From: a virus
DNA: 26,218 nucleotides
Direction: 5' to 3' (one strand)
IMG/VR virus record: IMGVR_UViG_3300032241_002945
Span: 1-26,218 of that record
Under the pieces are notes generated by a model. The model was not told where the DNA came from. It saw only the letters and a program-made list of their open reading frames with translations, and did no database searches. Made by a program: the position numbers and the translations under genes. This document shows positions 6,696 to 14,847 of the stretch, in pieces; position 1 is the stretch's first letter, and every line of letters starts with the position of its first letter.

Positions 6696-7019
6696 TTAGT
6701 TCTCCTGATCATGCACGTAGAGTTGAATAATTGCGTAGTGGATCACCTTCATCATATCGTTTCGCCAATCTTCAGGTGATCCCTTACGGCCATAACGTTG
6801 AGCATACTTTAGAATATTACCAACACAAAATCCAGTACCATGCCCACCATCAATGATGAACTCAGTTGCTTGATATTTGTTTTGGGAGTAATGTTGCCCA
6901 TATGTGTTATCAATATAGGCACGGATTTCCTCGAGGGTTTGATCCTCGTGGTATTTATAGTCGTTGTCAGAGGTGGATGATGTAATATCTAATGTAATTT
7001 TATCGCCCTTTCTAATCAA
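6696..7019 (-). CDS. DUF3310-like protein (SaV-like domain)
   Basis: 107 residues. The C-terminal half has the pattern FCVGNILKYAQRYGRK, then DWRNDMMKVIHYAIIQ, which fits the DUF3310 family of small phage proteins of unknown function (often labelled nucleotide-kinase-related without proof). The start is TTG at 7019, overlapping the queC TGA as TTGA, with AAGGAG eight bases upstream; no ATG fits. A TATAAATA inside this gene on the minus strand is ordinary coding for Asp-Tyr-Lys-Tyr. It is the tail of the deazaguanine block and precedes the glycosyltransferase. Confidence 0.7.
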   Translation of the reverse strand: MIRKGDKITLDITSSTSDNDYKYHEDQTLEEIRAYIDNTYGQHYSQNKYQATEFIIDGGHGTGFCVGNILKYAQRYGRKGSPEDWRNDMMKVIHYAIIQLYVHDQEN

Positions 7020-7828
7020 GCTGCATACTCCTTAAGAACTTGTTCAACATGTGACTTGGCGGTTTCCCAAGATACGGGACCTGTTTCATCTGCATACGCT
7101 ACAGGATCTGGACGACCTAGCTTGATGAATGCTTCAATACGCTCAACAGACGATGCTGACTTGTAATCTGAATACCAGATGTTATTGTGTTGCATCGGCT
7201 TGTATGAGGTATTTGTGTTAGCATACACGGTATTGAAATTAATGTCAAGCTCTTCGCAAAGATTAACTCCGTCTTGTAGGATGCCAAACTTATCAATTTC
7301 TAGATAAGGTGTGTAATAAACTACACGTTCAGCATCCCAGTTGCCAATACGGAATGCAGCGTCATCTGCATCTCGGAATTCTTGACGGCAGTCAGGATAG
7401 ATCGCATGATCTCCTGCATGAATGCCAAGAGCAATTGAAACATCTTCTTGCCAAGCGCTTGCAACTGAAAGTGCGACTGCTTGTGTGATCGAAGAAAAGA
7501 TCTTGTTACGATTAGGAACAACTGTTGCCTTCATGTTTTCATGAGCATAGTGACCTTCAGGAACTTCATCTCCACCACGAACCAGAGAAGAATTTAGAAG
7601 TTCAGGAAGGCCTACCATCTGAATAGTTTGATGAAAGATGTTGTAACCACGGGTCTTAAGATATTCAACTAGAGCTTCTGCACGTTCTAGTTCAACGCTG
7701 TGCTTTTGACCATAGAAGAATGATAGAGCAGTAATAGTACCGTTGTTCTTCTTTGCTTGTGCTAGACAGTTTAGAAGAAGTGTGCTACTATCCATGCCAC
7801 CAGATAGTGATACGACGAAATGCTTCAT
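7016..7828 (-). CDS. queC: 7-cyano-7-deazaguanine (preQ0) synthase QueC, zinc cysteines absent
   Basis: 270 residues from ATG 7828, which has ATGGAG upstream; an ATG at 7840 lacks a ribosome site. QueC turns 7-carboxy-7-deazaguanine into preQ0 with ATP and ammonia. The PP-loop ATPase motif is SGGMDSS (9-15). Other family segments are SFFYGQKHSVELERA, VPNRN, IHAGDHAIYPDCR and YTPYLEIDK. The C-terminal zinc site, normally SCY followed by CGxCxxC, reads TSYKPMQHNNIWYSDYKSAS, then SVERIEAF. All four cysteines are replaced: Ser208, Asp221, Ser224 and Ser227 by my alignment. The rest of the region is conserved, so this looks like a divergent QueC and not a decayed gene. Last pathway step before QueF and DpdA, encoded just upstream. 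Confidence 0.92.
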   Translation of the reverse strand: MKHFVVSLSGGMDSSTLLLNCLAQAKKNNGTITALSFFYGQKHSVELERAEALVEYLKTRGYNIFHQTIQMVGLPELLNSSLVRGGDEVPEGHYAHENMKATVVPNRNKIFSSITQAVALSVASAWQEDVSIALGIHAGDHAIYPDCRQEFRDADDAAFRIGNWDAERVVYYTPYLEIDKFGILQDGVNLCEELDINFNTVYANTNTSYKPMQHNNIWYSDYKSASSVERIEAFIKLGRPDPVAYADETGPVSWETAKSHVEQVLKEYAA

Positions 7829-7863
7829 AATAGACTCCATAATAAAGACGGTATGTTGTTTAG

Positions 7864-7887
7864 AGTGGTTAGTCTCTTTGAACCACT
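7864..7887 (-). other. Hairpin in the queF-queC gap
   Basis: Perfect 7-base-pair stem (AGTGGTT / AACCACT) with a 10-base loop on the minus strand, starting at the queF stop codon and about 36 bases before the queC ATG. There is no following T-run, so it is not a typical terminator. It may stabilise or separate the queF and queC messages. Its AGTGGTTC opening recalls class I preQ1 riboswitches but the conserved loop and A-rich tail are not matched. Confidence 0.4.
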
Positions 7888-8818
7888 ATTGACGCAAGGT
7901 CTTTGAAGAAATAATTGTTGTATTTCTCAAACTACCTGCAATGTGAAGTAGATGGTTATGTGATGCTCGTACAGGATTAATATCAATCCCACCTCTACGA
8001 GTATATAGACATCCCACAAATAGCTCTTGTGGTTGAACTAGTGAATGTAGTCGTGTATAGATGCATTCACAAATTTCTTCATGGAAATGATTTTCCTTAC
8101 GCATAGAAACGATATACTGCAAGAGCGATTCTTTGGTAGGTAGTTCATCTGCCTTGATGTAGATGTAAACATCTCCCCAATCAGGTTGATTAGTAACACG
8201 ACAATTAGAACGTAGTGAAGGTGACCAAACATACATTAAGCCCTTTTCATTAGAGAGCTTAATGATATCAGGACTTTCATTATATGCACTAAAGTCAAGT
8301 GTTTCGTTTTCAACATCATCTAGCAATTCAAAGTCATACATTTCTTGAATTGGTTGAATTGGGAATACTGTATCGCTATCATTAAAATTTGCAGAATGCA
8401 ACATCACTTCAATATCAGTATTAAGTGCTGCTGATAGATCATTCTCAATGTATTCTCTTGCAAGTTCTAGTGCATCTTGCAAGTTAGTAGCAATCTTAAC
8501 CATGTTATAAGAGTTTAGATATAGCTTCAATGATTTTGATTCTACAATAAATTCACTGTCTGCAGGATAAGTGATCTTAGCAATACAGCTTACAGGATAT
8601 CCATTTGTAAGTAGAAATGATACTTCATAAGCATGCCATGTATCAAATCCAACAAAGGGAAGGTGATCTTCTTCAATGTTGTACTGTACACGATTTAGGC
8701 TACGTGGAATAGGAACTAGAAGTGAAGAATCAATCTTGTCAGGTGTGACATAGGGCTTTACTGCACTACCATCACCTGCTTTACCTAAGTGCACTCCTGC
8801 GATATCTTCAATCTTCAT
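7886..8818 (-). CDS. queF: preQ0 reductase QueF, long two-domain type
   Basis: 310 residues, like the E. coli-type enzyme (282). It reduces preQ0 to preQ1 (7-aminomethyl-7-deazaguanine) with NADPH. The QueF signature ESKSLKLY is at 93-100. The thioimide-forming Cys206 is in SNCRVTNQPDWG, with Asp213 as proton donor, and the substrate-binding pair His246-Glu247 is in HFHEEICE. The C-terminal YTRRGGIDINPVR is nearly identical to E. coli QueF as I recall it. All catalytic residues are intact. The ATG overlaps the dpdA stop as ATGA. Its presence predicts preQ1, not preQ0, as the end product delivered to DNA. Confidence 0.95.
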   Translation of the reverse strand: MKIEDIAGVHLGKAGDGSAVKPYVTPDKIDSSLLVPIPRSLNRVQYNIEEDHLPFVGFDTWHAYEVSFLLTNGYPVSCIAKITYPADSEFIVESKSLKLYLNSYNMVKIATNLQDALELAREYIENDLSAALNTDIEVMLHSANFNDSDTVFPIQPIQEMYDFELLDDVENETLDFSAYNESPDIIKLSNEKGLMYVWSPSLRSNCRVTNQPDWGDVYIYIKADELPTKESLLQYIVSMRKENHFHEEICECIYTRLHSLVQPQELFVGCLYTRRGGIDINPVRASHNHLLHIAGSLRNTTIISSKTLRQ

Positions 8819-10173
8819 GAAAAGAAATCCTCTAATGTTGTTAGTTCATTATTACGAATGATACGCTTAGATGCTACATGTGTCTTACGTTCACGCATCC
8901 ATCTTGCCATATCATCATTTGTTCTGACATTAAGCAAAGCATTCAGAGCAAGTTCTTTATCTTTAGGATGCTTTGAATACTTCTGGTATTCATCTGTCAT
9001 GACTTTATCTAGGTTAGTCACGAAGTTATGGATTTGAAAATACGTATGTGCTGCATTACACAATAGTGTAGAACATATTGCATCTTCATCATTTGTTTCA
9101 AGGACACGATTCTTGATAGTTGAAAACTTCCAGTCACCCATACCATCGCCAAATATATTCGTCATGAATTGTTCTTCAGTGACGTATTCTTCAAATGTAT
9201 CCTTAAATGTAGTATACACGTTTCTGAAATGTTTGTCAACCGCATATGTTTTATTAGTGCCGATTGATTTACAAGTTCCGTTTACCTTAAGTAATCCATA
9301 CTGGAAAGTTGATGTATGTGAACTAGAGTCATAAGAGATACGATCAAACTCGCTAAGATAACCTGACTTAAGAAGGTATAGGATAGGACGCATACGTGAA
9401 ATAGATCCTACACCAAGAACGTGTAGATGCTTTCTGACGTTCTCATGACAGAACTCACTGATCATCTTTGCTGCACGAAGCATCTCAATAGATTCTAGTT
9501 CACCGTTGCCCATGCACGTATCAGCGATTGCCATACCACCAATGTTTTCATAGTCAGAAGGCTCTAGGCGTGATGCAATGCCACGATAGTAAGCAACCAT
9601 GTCTTCTGCACAGTTGCCTTGCACAATGATGATAACCTTTGTCTTAGCACCTGATGACCTGAAGTAAGATGCTTGAGTCTTTACGTTTTCACCTGTAGCA
9701 AAAGCAGACTCTTCATGTTTATCAGCATGAAAGATCTTGTTACCTACGTTAGAACGCTCGTTACGTGTTCTAGTTAAAGAAACAGATGATAAAGGAATAA
9801 CATCAAAGCACATAGCATAATCTGAATACGCTTGTGTCTGGTATATTTGCTTCTTGATTTCTTCGGTGATTGATTTACCTGCGGTAACAATCTGTAGTCC
9901 ACCAGAGTCTGCATAGACGCTATTCGATCCTAGGTTTTCTAATCTTTTAAATTCTTCAACGTGATTTTTTTCAGTGTACGCATTATAAAGAGTTGAGATT
10001 AGTGGCTTAGTGTTGTGGCACGTTTCGTCAATACGCTTCTTGAGCGACTTCATCAATGATAGGGTGGCTCTCTTATAAAGAGGATACCAAGGTGCTTCAT
10101 GATCGGCGGTGAATACACCCATCATGCCCACAGCACTAACTACATAATCTAACTTTTTAATATTATCGGCCAC
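8815..10173 (-). CDS. dpdA: DpdA-like DNA 7-deazaguanine transglycosylase (TGT paralogue)
   Basis: About 452 residues from GTG 10173, with AGGAAAA upstream and 11-base overlap with folE; a TTG at 10206 is an alternative. Exchanges guanine in DNA for a 7-deazaguanine. Tracts matching bacterial TGT can be followed in order: YADSGGLQ (catalytic Asp of DSGGFQ, about residue 89), AMCFDVIPL, IIVQGN (VQGG), IGGMAIAD, HVLGVGS (YLMGVG) and FDRISYDSSS (second catalytic Asp, near 282). The C-terminal TGT zinc site (CxCxxC) is not apparent. The protein is longer than tRNA TGT and the tract sequences diverge, as expected of phage DpdA. Adjacent FolE and Que enzymes supply the base. Confidence 0.9.
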   Translation of the reverse strand: MADNIKKLDYVVSAVGMMGVFTADHEAPWYPLYKRATLSLMKSLKKRIDETCHNTKPLISTLYNAYTEKNHVEEFKRLENLGSNSVYADSGGLQIVTAGKSITEEIKKQIYQTQAYSDYAMCFDVIPLSSVSLTRTRNERSNVGNKIFHADKHEESAFATGENVKTQASYFRSSGAKTKVIIIVQGNCAEDMVAYYRGIASRLEPSDYENIGGMAIADTCMGNGELESIEMLRAAKMISEFCHENVRKHLHVLGVGSISRMRPILYLLKSGYLSEFDRISYDSSSHTSTFQYGLLKVNGTCKSIGTNKTYAVDKHFRNVYTTFKDTFEEYVTEEQFMTNIFGDGMGDWKFSTIKNRVLETNDEDAICSTLLCNAAHTYFQIHNFVTNLDKVMTDEYQKYSKHPKDKELALNALLNVRTNDDMARWMRERKTHVASKRIIRNNELTTLEDFFS

Positions 10174-10852
10174 CTGTAAACTTTTCCTGTAGTGCAATGT
10201 TGTCAAAAAATTCTTTCTTTACATCTGCATCATGAAACTGACCATTCAGTACAGTTGTTTGTGTTAGAGATGATCTTGCCATGATCCCACGATTCTCACA
10301 GCAGCCATGAGTTGCTGCAATGTACACACCCACATCTGTTGTATTTGTTGCATACATGATTTCTAGAGCAATGTCATTGCATAGTTGTTCTTGTAGAGTC
10401 CCACGACGAGCACACCACTGTGCTAGACGTGTATACTTAGACAACCCAATAACTGTATCGCCTGGGATAACACCAATGTAGCAAACGCCCTTCACAGGTT
10501 GATGGTGATGAGAGCAGATTGAATTGATTTCTGAACGAACAACAAGCATTCCTTCATATGCTTCATCACCTTCATTTGGAAAAGCAGTTACTTCAGGACG
10601 TGGATCATATCGCCCAGACATGATTTCATTGATGTACATCTTAGCAAGACGTCTTGCTGTATCCCTTGAATTGGGATCATCTTCTGTATCGATAACTAAA
10701 CTACGAAGAACTAACTCAAACATGATAGTTGCTTCTTTGATCAGATTTTCACGTTCTTCATCTGTGATATATTCAGAAATGTTATCACAAGCCCAATAAC
10801 GAATGTTTTCTTCGTTAAGTCTATTACGAATAATTTCAGAAGTCAATAGCAT
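10163..10852 (-). CDS. folE: GTP cyclohydrolase I FolE
   Basis: 229 residues. Makes 7,8-dihydroneopterin triphosphate from GTP, the first step towards 7-deazaguanines (and folates). The zinc site is SICSHHHQP (Cys113, His116) plus THGCCENRG (Cys184), matching the family pattern SxCEHHxxP and HxCMxxRG. PGDTVIGLSKYTRLAQWCARR matches the conserved substrate-binding segment and DTARRLAKMY the N-terminal one. The ATG overlaps the stop of a small upstream ORF as TAATG. In this context it most likely feeds QueD and not folate synthesis. Confidence 0.95.
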   Translation of the reverse strand: MLLTSEIIRNRLNEENIRYWACDNISEYITDEERENLIKEATIMFELVLRSLVIDTEDDPNSRDTARRLAKMYINEIMSGRYDPRPEVTAFPNEGDEAYEGMLVVRSEINSICSHHHQPVKGVCYIGVIPGDTVIGLSKYTRLAQWCARRGTLQEQLCNDIALEIMYATNTTDVGVYIAATHGCCENRGIMARSSLTQTTVLNGQFHDADVKKEFFDNIALQEKFTGGR

Positions 10853-11019
10853 TATGTTGGGTCCTTTTCCAGGGATGATTTCAATTTTCTTGATACAACA
10901 CCAGCTGGTTGCATTACATATTTTGCATGATCTCTATGCACTTGTGTTTTTTTCCATTTACCTATTTTTGTTTTATCAGATTTTGGTTTACTTATCTTTT
11001 GTGATAATGTATGTTTCAA
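10852..11019 (-). CDS. Putative small basic protein between queE and folE
   Basis: An open frame of 55 residues that fills the only sizeable gap in the que block. It runs from TTG 11019, overlapping the queE stop as TTGA, to a TAA that overlaps the folE ATG as TAATG. Both junction types occur elsewhere in the window, which is the main evidence. The product is very Lys/Arg-rich (KISKPKSDKTKIGKWKK near the N-terminus) and I do not recognise it. The ribosome site GGGG is only about three bases from the TTG, so the start is weak. Confidence 0.4.
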   Translation of the reverse strand: MKHTLSQKISKPKSDKTKIGKWKKTQVHRDHAKYVMQPAGVVSRKLKSSLEKDPT

Positions 11020-11603
11020 GTACCCCAAGCGTTTTTGTAAAGTGGAACTTGAATACGAGGACTAAATCTGAACCCGTTATCTCTACAGTAGTCAGCAACG
11101 TTACGTTCATTCTTTTCATAAGAAGTTGATGTGCCACCAACAGGCATCAGGTATACAGGAACATTTACATCAGATGCTGAATATGCAGCAACAGCTAACT
11201 TAGCATCAAGAATATCTTGTTCATCTGCTACAACAAACTTCAAATATACATTACTGTTAGGAACTTCTGTATATTGCTTAACTACATCAGGTTTAATTGC
11301 CTGACGCCATTCTTCACCTGATACAGGAAGTTTTGCTGAAACTGAAAAGGTAAACTTGATATCATTACAAATACCTTTGACGTATTCTTCAAATGCTGCT
11401 GTAAGATATTGTGTACCATTTGTTTCAAATGTAATATCTGTTAGGTTCATATGACGGCGAGCGATTTCATTGATAAGATCTGGATAGGCCTTTTGCCATC
11501 CTAGTAGAGGTTCGCCACCTGTGATGATCAGATGCTTATCAGGACCAAACTTTCCATCAGGAAGCATTTCTTGCATCTTGTCAACGATCTCAGAAATTTC
11601 CAT
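11016..11603 (-). CDS. queE: QueE, C-terminal fragment after in-frame stop
   Basis: 195 residues if started at ATG 11603, which has only a poorly placed AAGGAA. It is the main body of 7-carboxy-7-deazaguanine synthase, the radical-SAM enzyme that contracts the pterin ring. The SAM-binding motif ITGGEPLLGWQ, then ITFETNGTQ, VSAKLPVSGE, YLKFVVAD and VYLMPVGGT are all well conserved. It is in the same frame as the N-terminal fragment, 72 bases upstream including the stop codon. On its own it would lack the cluster cysteines and so be inactive. The coding between the two fragments is normal QueE sequence, so the gene is otherwise intact. Confidence 0.85.
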   Translation of the reverse strand: MEISEIVDKMQEMLPDGKFGPDKHLIITGGEPLLGWQKAYPDLINEIARRHMNLTDITFETNGTQYLTAAFEEYVKGICNDIKFTFSVSAKLPVSGEEWRQAIKPDVVKQYTEVPNSNVYLKFVVADEQDILDAKLAVAAYSASDVNVPVYLMPVGGTSTSYEKNERNVADYCRDNGFRFSPRIQVPLYKNAWGT

Positions 11604-11675
11604 GAAAGGAGAAAGTTCCTTGAACCGTGGATCCCATGATGCATAAGAGTCACATCCTGTATGAACAAGAGGTAG

Positions 11676-11873
11676 TTATTGATAGGACTTGTATGGATGA
11701 AACTCATGAAGTTGTGCTACAGTATCACGTTCACCCGATAGCTGTCCACGCTTCATTCCGAAACCAGAACATGTAAAATTACACCCAAAGGTTCTTAGAA
11801 AGACAGAAGGTACGCCAACAAACATACCTTCACCTTGCAAACTGTAAAACAGTTCTGATACTTTAATCTTCAC
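11676..11873 (-). CDS. queE: QueE, N-terminal fragment ending at in-frame TAA
   Basis: 65 residues from GTG 11873 (GAGGG nine bases upstream; TTG 11882 also possible). It holds the QueE N-terminus with SELFYSLQGEG, PSVFLRTFGCNFTCSGFGM and its CxxxC pair (residues 31 and 35). The frame stops at TAA 11676-11678 after YKSYQ and then resumes without shift as LPLVHTGCDSYASWDPRF. The cysteine in TGCDSY is the likely third cluster ligand and is downstream of the stop. Overlaps queD by 11 bases, the same overlap as folE/dpdA. This is either a real nonsense mutation, a sequencing error or readthrough. Confidence 0.82.
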   Translation of the reverse strand: MKIKVSELFYSLQGEGMFVGVPSVFLRTFGCNFTCSGFGMKRGQLSGERDTVAQLHEFHPYKSYQ

Positions 11874-12321
11874 GATGTCCAACCCTCATTGCCATGTTAT
11901 TATCTGTTTCGCGAACTTCTACCTTGCAGCACCATACTCTATCGCTCCAACCGTAGTCCTTAAGGAAACAATCATTCACGTAAGTATATAGAAAATCAGC
12001 AAGGCCTTCACACCCTGTCTTCTCAACCAAAGTGATTTTTGCCAGACCCTTGTCTCCTAATAGCAACAGGTCATCCTTATGAGGATCATCTTCTGCAACC
12101 AGAAGTGTATGATCGAACCACTCTTCTAGAAGTGCCTTGAGTGGCTTTAGACCACCGAAGTCAACTACCCAATTACGAGCGTCAAGTGTATCAGACTCAA
12201 ACTCAAAGTGAAATGATAGAGCATACCCATGGATTAGATTGCAGTGACTGTCTGCTCGCCATTGACGATATGCAACAGGACCTATCTGCTTATAAGTTTT
12301 AGTAGAAATATATTTTGCCAT
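11863..12321 (-). CDS. queD: 6-carboxy-tetrahydropterin synthase QueD, variant metal site
   Basis: 152 residues from ATG 12321, preceded by GGGAGT. It converts dihydroneopterin triphosphate to 6-carboxytetrahydropterin, between FolE and QueE. Family marks seen are WVVDFGGLK (as in VMDFGDLK), WFDHTLL with His71, and KTGCEGLADFLY with Glu105, equivalent to PTxEN. The catalytic Cys27 is in ADSHCNLIHGYALSF. In E. coli QueD this region reads CxxxHGH with zinc histidines. Here the second His of HGH is Tyr33 and a His26 precedes the cysteine, so the zinc site is rearranged or altered. PTPS fold call is firm; the exact reaction is inferred from the neighbours. Confidence 0.9.
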   Translation of the reverse strand: MAKYISTKTYKQIGPVAYRQWRADSHCNLIHGYALSFHFEFESDTLDARNWVVDFGGLKPLKALLEEWFDHTLLVAEDDPHKDDLLLLGDKGLAKITLVEKTGCEGLADFLYTYVNDCFLKDYGWSDRVWCCKVEVRETDNNMAMRVGHRED

Positions 12322-12323
12322 AA

Positions 12324-12782
12324 TTACTCCCAAGGAAATTGTACCCAACGCTTATCTTCATTACGATCAATAGTAACGCCGAAGTAATTAGCTTTTACAG
12401 GTTGTGATACATTATAAATCAGACATGCAGTCCTAATGTTGTCAGTATAAGGTGAAAAAGATAATTTGTCAAGTAGAGTCTGCATAGTTTTTCCAGAATC
12501 TATAATATCATCAACTATAAGAACATTACAATGTGCTTTTACAATCGTTTCTAGTTTTGCAAAGTTCCCATCTGTATCTACGATTGTGCCGTCTCTTGTA
12601 GATAAGTGTATCATCAATGTAGGTACATCAAGTGCATGTGACAAGTATACTGCAGGTACACACCCACCTCTTACAAGACCTACAATAATATCTGGAACCC
12701 AAGTATCTTCTTTCAGATCAATAGCAATTCTAAGAATGTCTGCTAGAAATTCTGGATGTTCATAATGTCTTAATTCACTCAT
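12324..12782 (-). CDS. Type I phosphoribosyltransferase, purine-like
   Basis: 152 residues. The PRPP-binding loop VLIVDDIIDSGKTM (87-100) is diagnostic, and the pyrophosphate loop is GLVRGGCVPA (35-44). The C-terminus DKRWVQFPWE resembles bacterial xanthine/guanine phosphoribosyltransferases, whose hood ends with a W(V/I)xFPWE segment. It would join a purine-type base to PRPP. The start overlaps the deformylase stop as ATGA and queD follows after two bases, so it is part of the que operon. It could salvage guanine for GTP supply or act on a deazapurine; the sequence does not decide. Confidence 0.87.
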   Translation of the reverse strand: MSELRHYEHPEFLADILRIAIDLKEDTWVPDIIVGLVRGGCVPAVYLSHALDVPTLMIHLSTRDGTIVDTDGNFAKLETIVKAHCNVLIVDDIIDSGKTMQTLLDKLSFSPYTDNIRTACLIYNVSQPVKANYFGVTIDRNEDKRWVQFPWE

Positions 12783-14202: not shown

Positions 14203-14847
14203 ATGACTATTTATTGCACATATCTAACAGTATATAAAGGCAACTTGCTTCCACCATTCTATATAGGTTATACTAATATAGAAAAGATTGCCATAGGATA
14301 TAACGGATCTGTTACTTCAAAAAAATATAGAATTCTATGGGAACAGGAACGTAAAGAAAACATACACCTATTCAAAACTGTTATTATAAAAACATTCAAG
14401 ACTAAAGATTTAGCAATTGAACATGAGAGATATTTACAGACATTTTTCAATGTTGATAAAAATCCTATGTACATAAATCAGGCAATTTCAAATATAAAGT
14501 TTAAAAATATAGGAGGTTATACCCTATCTAATAGAACTAAGAATAAGATGAAAAAACAAAAATCAGAACAGCATCGTAAAAAAATATCAAAATCTCAATC
14601 AGGTATACCATGTCCTAATAGGGGCATATCTAGAATAGGAGTCAAAAGAGAAGGTATAGGTGGTAGAAAAAGGGGGTGTTCTGCATGGAACAAAGATATA
14701 TCCCATTCTGATATGACCATATATCTTATACAGCAAAAAGCATTAAATAGAGAAAGAATACAATGTCTACATTGTAGTATTATTGTAACACCTGGAAACT
14801 TTGCAAGATGGCACGGTGATAATTGTAAGCTTAAACCCTCTGACTAA
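14203..14847 (+). CDS. GIY-YIG-like homing endonuclease with NUMOD-like repeats and zinc finger
   Basis: 214 residues, very AT-rich and lysine-rich. The N-terminal domain has TYLTVYKGNLLPPFYIGYTN, a GIY-YIG variant ending in YIG, then GYNGSVTSKKYRILW. The middle (HRKKISKSQSGIPCPNRG, GVKREGIGGRKRG, CSAWNKD) resembles NUMOD3-type DNA-binding repeats. The C-terminus CLHCSIIVTPGNFARWHGD plus NC forms a Cys2HisCys-like finger. It would nick or cut phage DNA lacking the element and spread by repair. It is free-standing, on the opposite strand, and its last 17 bases overlap the 3' end of gene 46. CGGGAG precedes ATG 14203. Confidence 0.82.
   Translation: MTIYCTYLTVYKGNLLPPFYIGYTNIEKIAIGYNGSVTSKKYRILWEQERKENIHLFKTVIIKTFKTKDLAIEHERYLQTFFNVDKNPMYINQAISNIKFKNIGGYTLSNRTKNKMKKQKSEQHRKKISKSQSGIPCPNRGISRIGVKREGIGGRKRGCSAWNKDISHSDMTIYLIQQKALNRERIQCLHCSIIVTPGNFARWHGDNCKLKPSD

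Follow-up and report, generated by a model that had tools for sequence, protein, structure and literature searches.

The Locus and Its Genes

The window, by which is meant the whole stretch of DNA analysed here, is a virus record of 26,218 bases whose replication genes (clamp, clamp loader) are T4-like. One of its minus-strand genes encodes a protein resembling 7-cyano-7-deazaguanine synthase (QueC), and FolE, QueE, QueD, QueF, and a DpdA2-like gene lie within 5 kb of it (Table 1). The gene set of DpdA-based modification, a DpdA-type transglycosylase with FolE, QueD, QueE, and QueC, is present, with QueE interrupted. A homing or HNH endonuclease gene is found on the plus strand (14203-14847) amid the minus-strand replication genes.

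Table 1. Features of the QueC locus in the window. Residue numbers refer to the window QueC.
Feature	Position	Strand	Basis
QueC without zinc ligands (7-cyano-7-deazaguanine synthase-like), 270 aa from ATG	7016..7828	minus	PF06508; fold match to 2pg3 and 3bl5; sequence
Former zinc site, T211-R234, TSYKPMQHNNIWYSDYKSASSVER replacing T-C-Y-x(7)-C-x-x-C-x-x-C-x-x-R	7139..7210	minus	alignment
YPDC motif, residues 148-151, intact	7388..7399	minus	alignment; motif from PMC13329287 (available text)
VPxRN motif VPNRN, residues 108-112, intact	7505..7519	minus	alignment; motif from PMC13329287 (available text)
YxQxHxxE motif YGQKHSVE, residues 43-50, intact	7691..7714	minus	alignment; motif from PMC13329287 (available text)
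PP-loop SGGMDS (SGGxDS), residues 13-18, intact	7787..7804	minus	alignment
QueF, bimodular NADPH-dependent preQ0 reductase	7886..8818	minus	Pfam; NCBIfam; alignment to E. coli QueF
DpdA2-like DNA guanine transglycosylase	8815..10206	minus	phrog_10773, 271 bits; tblastn; pf16 and KVP40-type context
FolE, GTP cyclohydrolase I	10163..10852	minus	profile match
QueE, interrupted by in-frame TAA at 11676-11678	11016..11882	minus	sequence
QueD	11863..12348	minus	profile match

The open frame of QueC reaches 7840 (7016-7840, minus strand, 274 aa), and residue numbers such as S212 are counted from there. The start at 7828 given in a preliminary description of this DNA is the better one, with GGAG at 7838-7835, 6 nt ahead of the ATG. 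The protein scores 121.5 bits against Pfam PF06508 (cut-off 22) and 117.7 bits against the NCBIfam equivalog TIGR00364, which is under the cut-off of 150.3; the archaeal and planctomycete QueC proteins without zinc ligands that are described below score 130.2 and 128.1 bits against the same model. The solved QueC structures 2pg3 and 3bl5 match the window protein by sequence and are the best structural matches of its predicted fold. The AlphaFold2 model (pLDDT 83.5), a check that the preliminary description had proposed, confirms the QueC fold.

Aligned to E. coli QueF, the window QueF has the ESKSLKLYLNSY motif and the equivalents of C190, D197, H229, E230, and E89. In the related contigs that carry a QueF, all catalytic and NADPH-motif residues are present, with changes around the catalytic Asp in a single contig (L058). 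The DpdA2-like protein is a relative of proteins of Vibrio phage KVP40 and phage pf16 that are encoded beside QueF and QueC. The in-frame TAA of QueE might be a sequencing error, a fresh loss, or a site of readthrough; the QueE copy of the close relative L003 is uninterrupted. The radical-SAM cysteine motif of QueE looks split in the window and in L003, L007, L009, L012, and L014, with CX3C followed after about 34-40 residues by GCDS, which has an apparent third cysteine.

A QueC with an Altered Zinc Site and a Complete Catalytic Signature

Canonical QueC has a C(x)8CxxCxxC zinc motif, which is absent from the window protein. In an alignment with E. coli QueC (reference sequence from NC_000913), S212, D225, S228, and S231 stand at the positions of C188, C197, C200, and C203, just as the preliminary description had it: the stretch is alignable and its cysteines are replaced by Ser, Asp, Ser, and Ser. 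Within it, Tyr213 (E. coli Y189) and Arg234 (R206) are retained.

Has the zinc site moved elsewhere in the protein? The only cysteines of the window QueC are C25, which is not conserved, C151, which belongs to the catalytic YPDC motif, and C195. Thus, the site has not moved, and displacement of the cysteines, which the preliminary description had raised against its own reading, is ruled out. C195 (codon 7256-7258) has no equivalent in the canonical motif, and 80 of the 83 rows aligned for the window's phage clade (clade A) have it.

The PP-loop and the other motifs are all present in the alignment, as had also been described. A reference alignment of 93 proteins without the zinc site (71 cellular, 15 from clade A, and 7 from a second phage group, clade B) has 14 invariant positions, corresponding to E. 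coli Y35, Q37, H39, E42, P97, R99, N100, Y131, P132, D133, C134, K165, Y189, and R206; the sole exception is one ambiguous letter at R99. In the same alignment C197, C200, and C203 are lost in 93 of 93 proteins and C188 in all but two. Y189, which adjoins the first former ligand, is kept in every one. The substitutions Y35A, R99A, Y131A, and Y189A are each described in the available text of PMC13329287 as abolishing E. coli QueC function; R206 is outside the catalytic list given there, yet is equally conserved. As far as the alignment can tell, the metal site is changed and the active site is not.

Relatives of the Window QueC in Viruses

At least 598 relatives turned up when viral contigs were scanned, and 80 of them were fetched and read. 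All 80, together with the isolate Flavobacterium phage immuto, read TSYKP...(S/A)DYKSxxSxER and have no cysteine at the ligand positions; the alignment of phage QueC proteins suggested in the preliminary description thus gives a uniform replacement. With 81 relatives sharing it, sequencing error or a singleton is ruled out, and the replacement is far beyond chance. The immuto QueC is 64% identical to that of the window. In a 69-sequence alignment of phage QueC, 99 positions are invariant, S212, Y213, D225, S228, and S231 among them.

Zinc-less QueC in Archaea and Planctomycetes

Is the loss of the zinc cysteines confined to phages? Bacterial and archaeal genomes were scanned with the 69-sequence phage alignment. 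The cellular relatives, mostly 41-51% identical, belong to marine group II and III euryarchaeota and to Pirellulaceae, and nearly all are without zinc cysteines, typically reading TSYNPD..GRSSGKSGADVERILAF. Two (L148, L150) retain only the first cysteine, and two close relatives (L110, L151) retain all four. The zinc-less form is the sole strong QueC match in 28 genomes, where the other matches are weak PP-loop hits of about 19-29 bits; two Cys4 genomes from the same search likewise have one strong match each. TGT is found in 28 of these 30 genomes and a QueD-family protein in 29. QueF is present in the planctomycetes that bear zinc-less QueC. In the archaeal genome L125, one operon encodes FolE, QueE, zinc-less QueC, SelR, and QueD, and therefore holds the whole preQ0 pathway.

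The zinc-less form is the only QueC in nearly all Poseidoniia (marine group II archaea) sampled. The cellular genomes in this analysis are mostly metagenome bins. In the class of archaeon L104, the best 30 QueC proteins by score comprise 29 zinc-less forms, one of them with the first cysteine, and one canonical form. That Cys4 copy (L218, in genome G174) stands in an otherwise zinc-less class and might reflect transfer or binning contamination. About a sixth of Pirellulaceae have the zinc-less form only. In 100 genomes of this family, 15 are of this kind (all read), while 76 have a high-scoring QueC and none of these a zinc-less copy; the best 30 of the 76 were read and are all Cys4. The two forms, occurring in separate genomes, thus replace each other.

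The preliminary description had suggested that the missing cysteines might define a phage subclass. A coherent zinc-less phage clade does exist (support 100/99), but the trait is common to the chromosomal QueC of Poseidoniia and Pirellulaceae, and it has arisen again in another phage group. A trait restricted to phages is ruled out by the genome scan.

At Least Two Losses of the Zinc Site

The second group, clade B, comprises QueC proteins of Pseudomonas phage Iggy, Rhizobium phage RHEph04, Dinoroseobacter phage R5C, Pseudanabaena phage Pan1, Microcystis phage Me-ZS1, Vibrio phage 83AMN, and a Stenotrophomonas phage (loci L092, L093, L097, and L182-L185). At the former zinc site they share the motif T(S/A)YDGxYPPxxxxHxxxLR. 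The replacements of the four cysteines differ by group: S/D/S/S in phage clade A, S/(S,H,D,N)/(S,T)/D in cells, and (A,S)/(T,V,I)/(D,N)/(T,N,S) in phage clade B.

In a QueC tree built without the motif columns, the clade B proteins come together (100/98) next to E. coli and CAjan QueC and well away from the window clade. The latter (100/99) joins the archaeal and planctomycete QueC proteins (100/99). Forcing all zinc-less QueC into one clade was rejected (AU p = 0.001), which rules out a single origin; forcing the window clade and the cellular forms together was not rejected (p = 0.27), with the Cys4 rows L110 and L151 falling among them. The zinc site has thus been lost at least twice, and possibly more often, finer placement in the tree being limited by long branches on several reference rows.

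Product and Role of Zinc

What does a QueC without zinc ligands make? It is likely that the zinc-free enzyme makes preQ0 as usual and that, in this phage, preQ0 is converted to preQ1 and placed in DNA. FolE, QueD, and QueE would supply CDG; the zinc-less QueC would carry out the full reaction in two ATP-dependent steps, from CDG through ADG to preQ0; QueF would convert preQ0 to preQ1; and the DpdA2-like transglycosylase would swap preQ1 for guanine in the phage DNA, a modification that presumably counters host restriction. The interrupted QueE of the window counts against this reading. Cells that have only the zinc-less form carry TGT and, in planctomycetes, QueF, both of which depend on preQ0. 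Since this form is the sole copy in many marine archaea and some planctomycetes, QueC can probably do without zinc and probably still yields its usual product.

The window QueC sequence is most naturally read as having a metal-free site. Zinc in canonical QueC most likely holds the C-terminal fold together, and a loop rich in Ser and Asp, presumably packed in its place, could take over this part. The zinc knuckle would then be a support for the fold, exchangeable for such a loop provided that the catalytic Tyr (E. coli Y189) stays. Against a zinc-free QueC stands the statement, in the available text of PMC13329287, that QueC needs zinc to function. One may speculate that the scarcity of zinc in the ocean, and the sparing of it, drove the change in marine archaea and phages, but this would leave the Pseudomonas and Rhizobium phages unaccounted for.

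It is unlikely that a metal is still bound through other residues, for example C195, Asp225, or conserved histidines. The frequency of C195 in clade A would fit such a site, as would the Asp and Ser at the old ligand positions and the His at one of them in some Pirellulaceae. However, the replacements vary between phage clade A, cells, and phage clade B, and clade A proteins have anywhere from 9 to 32 residues in the loop that separates the first two former ligands, features unlike those of a conserved metal site.

We consider it quite unlikely that the reaction of the zinc-less QueC ends prematurely with the release of ADG, or that CDG is no longer turned over, leaving an amide or carboxyl base in the phage DNA. 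Bases of this kind exist, since 7-amido and other 7-deazaguanines are known in phage DNA (PMC6884629, PMC8306585), and most of the zinc-less-QueC phage records checked have no QueF match: of 26 records, immuto being one, QueF scores above the cut-off in 5 and a relative of the immuto DpdA is found in 23. The preliminary description had likewise allowed for an amide or carboxyl product. For the window phage this is unsupported, and a changed product seems unlikely there because the 14 signature positions, Y189 included, are invariant and the nitrile-reductase site of the adjoining QueF is intact. Such a QueF requires the nitrile preQ0. The TGT of archaea and planctomycetes whose only QueC is zinc-less, and the QueF of those planctomycetes, also speak against an early stop.

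Campylobacter phage CP21 bears on the same question. Its QueC (L090) retains the full set of zinc cysteines, but its active-site motifs are altered, reading FPDC and YGS. CP21 is a relative of phages CP220 and CPt10. Both of these have been reported to carry dADG. Since CP21 keeps its zinc site, the amide product is not tied to zinc loss, and such a link is ruled out; where an amide product is expected, the difference lies in the active site, and these changes may underlie that product.

With so few QueF matches, the case for a preQ0 requirement in the QueF-less phages comes down to DpdA and the conserved residues. Their gene context leaves room for an altered product, against which the conserved residues argue. 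A changed outcome in QueF-less clade A phages, with ADG released or the product handed to DpdA and the freed, variable-length loop serving as a partner-binding surface, strikes us as improbable.

Decay of the phage gene, with the host QueC used instead, is very improbable. The in-frame stop in QueE of the same window would be in keeping with it, but the QueC frame is open and L003, at 96% identity, has an intact QueE. The active site is invariant over 69 sequences, among relatives that are 67-74% identical, and this indicates purifying selection, not decay. A new role for this QueC as a protein-modifying ligase, on the lines of Cap9 or QatC, is barely credible: such co-option is known in the QueC family (PMC13279940 and PMC13329287, available text), but the genomic setting here is one of preQ0 synthesis and DNA insertion, zinc cysteines are retained in Cap9 and QatC, unlike here, and no CD-NTase, qatABD, or qatB-type partner genes were noted among the scanned neighbours, which cover part of the window ORFs.

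Comparison with Known Systems

The 2026 family survey PMC13329287 treats the zinc motif as a hallmark of QueC, and no exceptions within QueC are mentioned in its available text. No mention of a QueC lacking the motif was found in the open-access literature, the scope of the search. The window protein resembles canonical QueC (PF06508 cluster 1; E. coli, B. subtilis 3bl5, 2pg3) in fold, in the PP-loop, YxQxHxxE, VPxRN, and YPDC motifs, in K165 and Y189, and in its linkage to FolE, QueD, and QueE. It differs in lacking all four zinc cysteines, in a diverged C-terminal half, and in falling under the TIGR00364 cut-off. Because one listed hallmark fails, it is classed as a zinc-less variant and not as a standard member. 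The Cap9 and QatC zinc motifs in the available text of the survey, CE(x)6CxxCxxCxD or C(x)19CGxCxxRR, are likewise absent from it.

The closest parallels lie in cells. The QueC of Poseidoniia and some Pirellulaceae is zinc-less at the same positions and has the same catalytic residues; unlike the window QueC, it is a cellular sole copy accompanied by TGT, its loop length is constant, and its motif is TSYxPD..GR(S/A)xGx(S/T)G(A/S)DVER where the phage has TSYKP..SDYKSASSVER. The clade B proteins (Iggy, RHEph04, R5C, Pan1, Me-ZS1) have also lost the zinc cysteines, kept the active site, and lie clustered with other preQ0 genes, but they have an independent origin and a motif of their own. In gene order the window resembles Pseudomonas phage pf16, where FolE, DpdA2-like, QueF, and QueC genes stand in a row, and the Vibrio phage KVP40 type, with DpdA2-like, QueF, and QueC genes; both kinds of QueC differ from that of the window in keeping all four cysteines. 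Cysteine zinc sites have been lost in some lineages of ribosomal protein S4 and GluRS (PMC3087516 and PMC4381286, available text), proteins unrelated to QueC that provide an analogy only.

A feature called a hallmark of QueC is thus probably dispensable: it has been lost at least twice around invariant catalytic residues, also in cells with no other QueC. The role of zinc can therefore be tested directly by setting zinc-less against zinc-bearing orthologues that occur naturally within a single bacterial family. Annotation by the zinc motif or by the current equivalog cut-off overlooks genuine QueC proteins of abundant marine archaea and of phages.

Within clade A, phage immuto encodes QueD, QueE, FolE, DpdA, and QueF. 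This enzyme set equals that of the window, but its DpdA is of another type and there is in addition a PurN-like formyltransferase. An immuto phage was reportedly analysed in a study of further phage 7-deazaguanines. The PurN-like gene lies at 7040-7567 of the immuto locus (L083), between DpdA and QueF, and suggests formylation of preQ1 in DNA.
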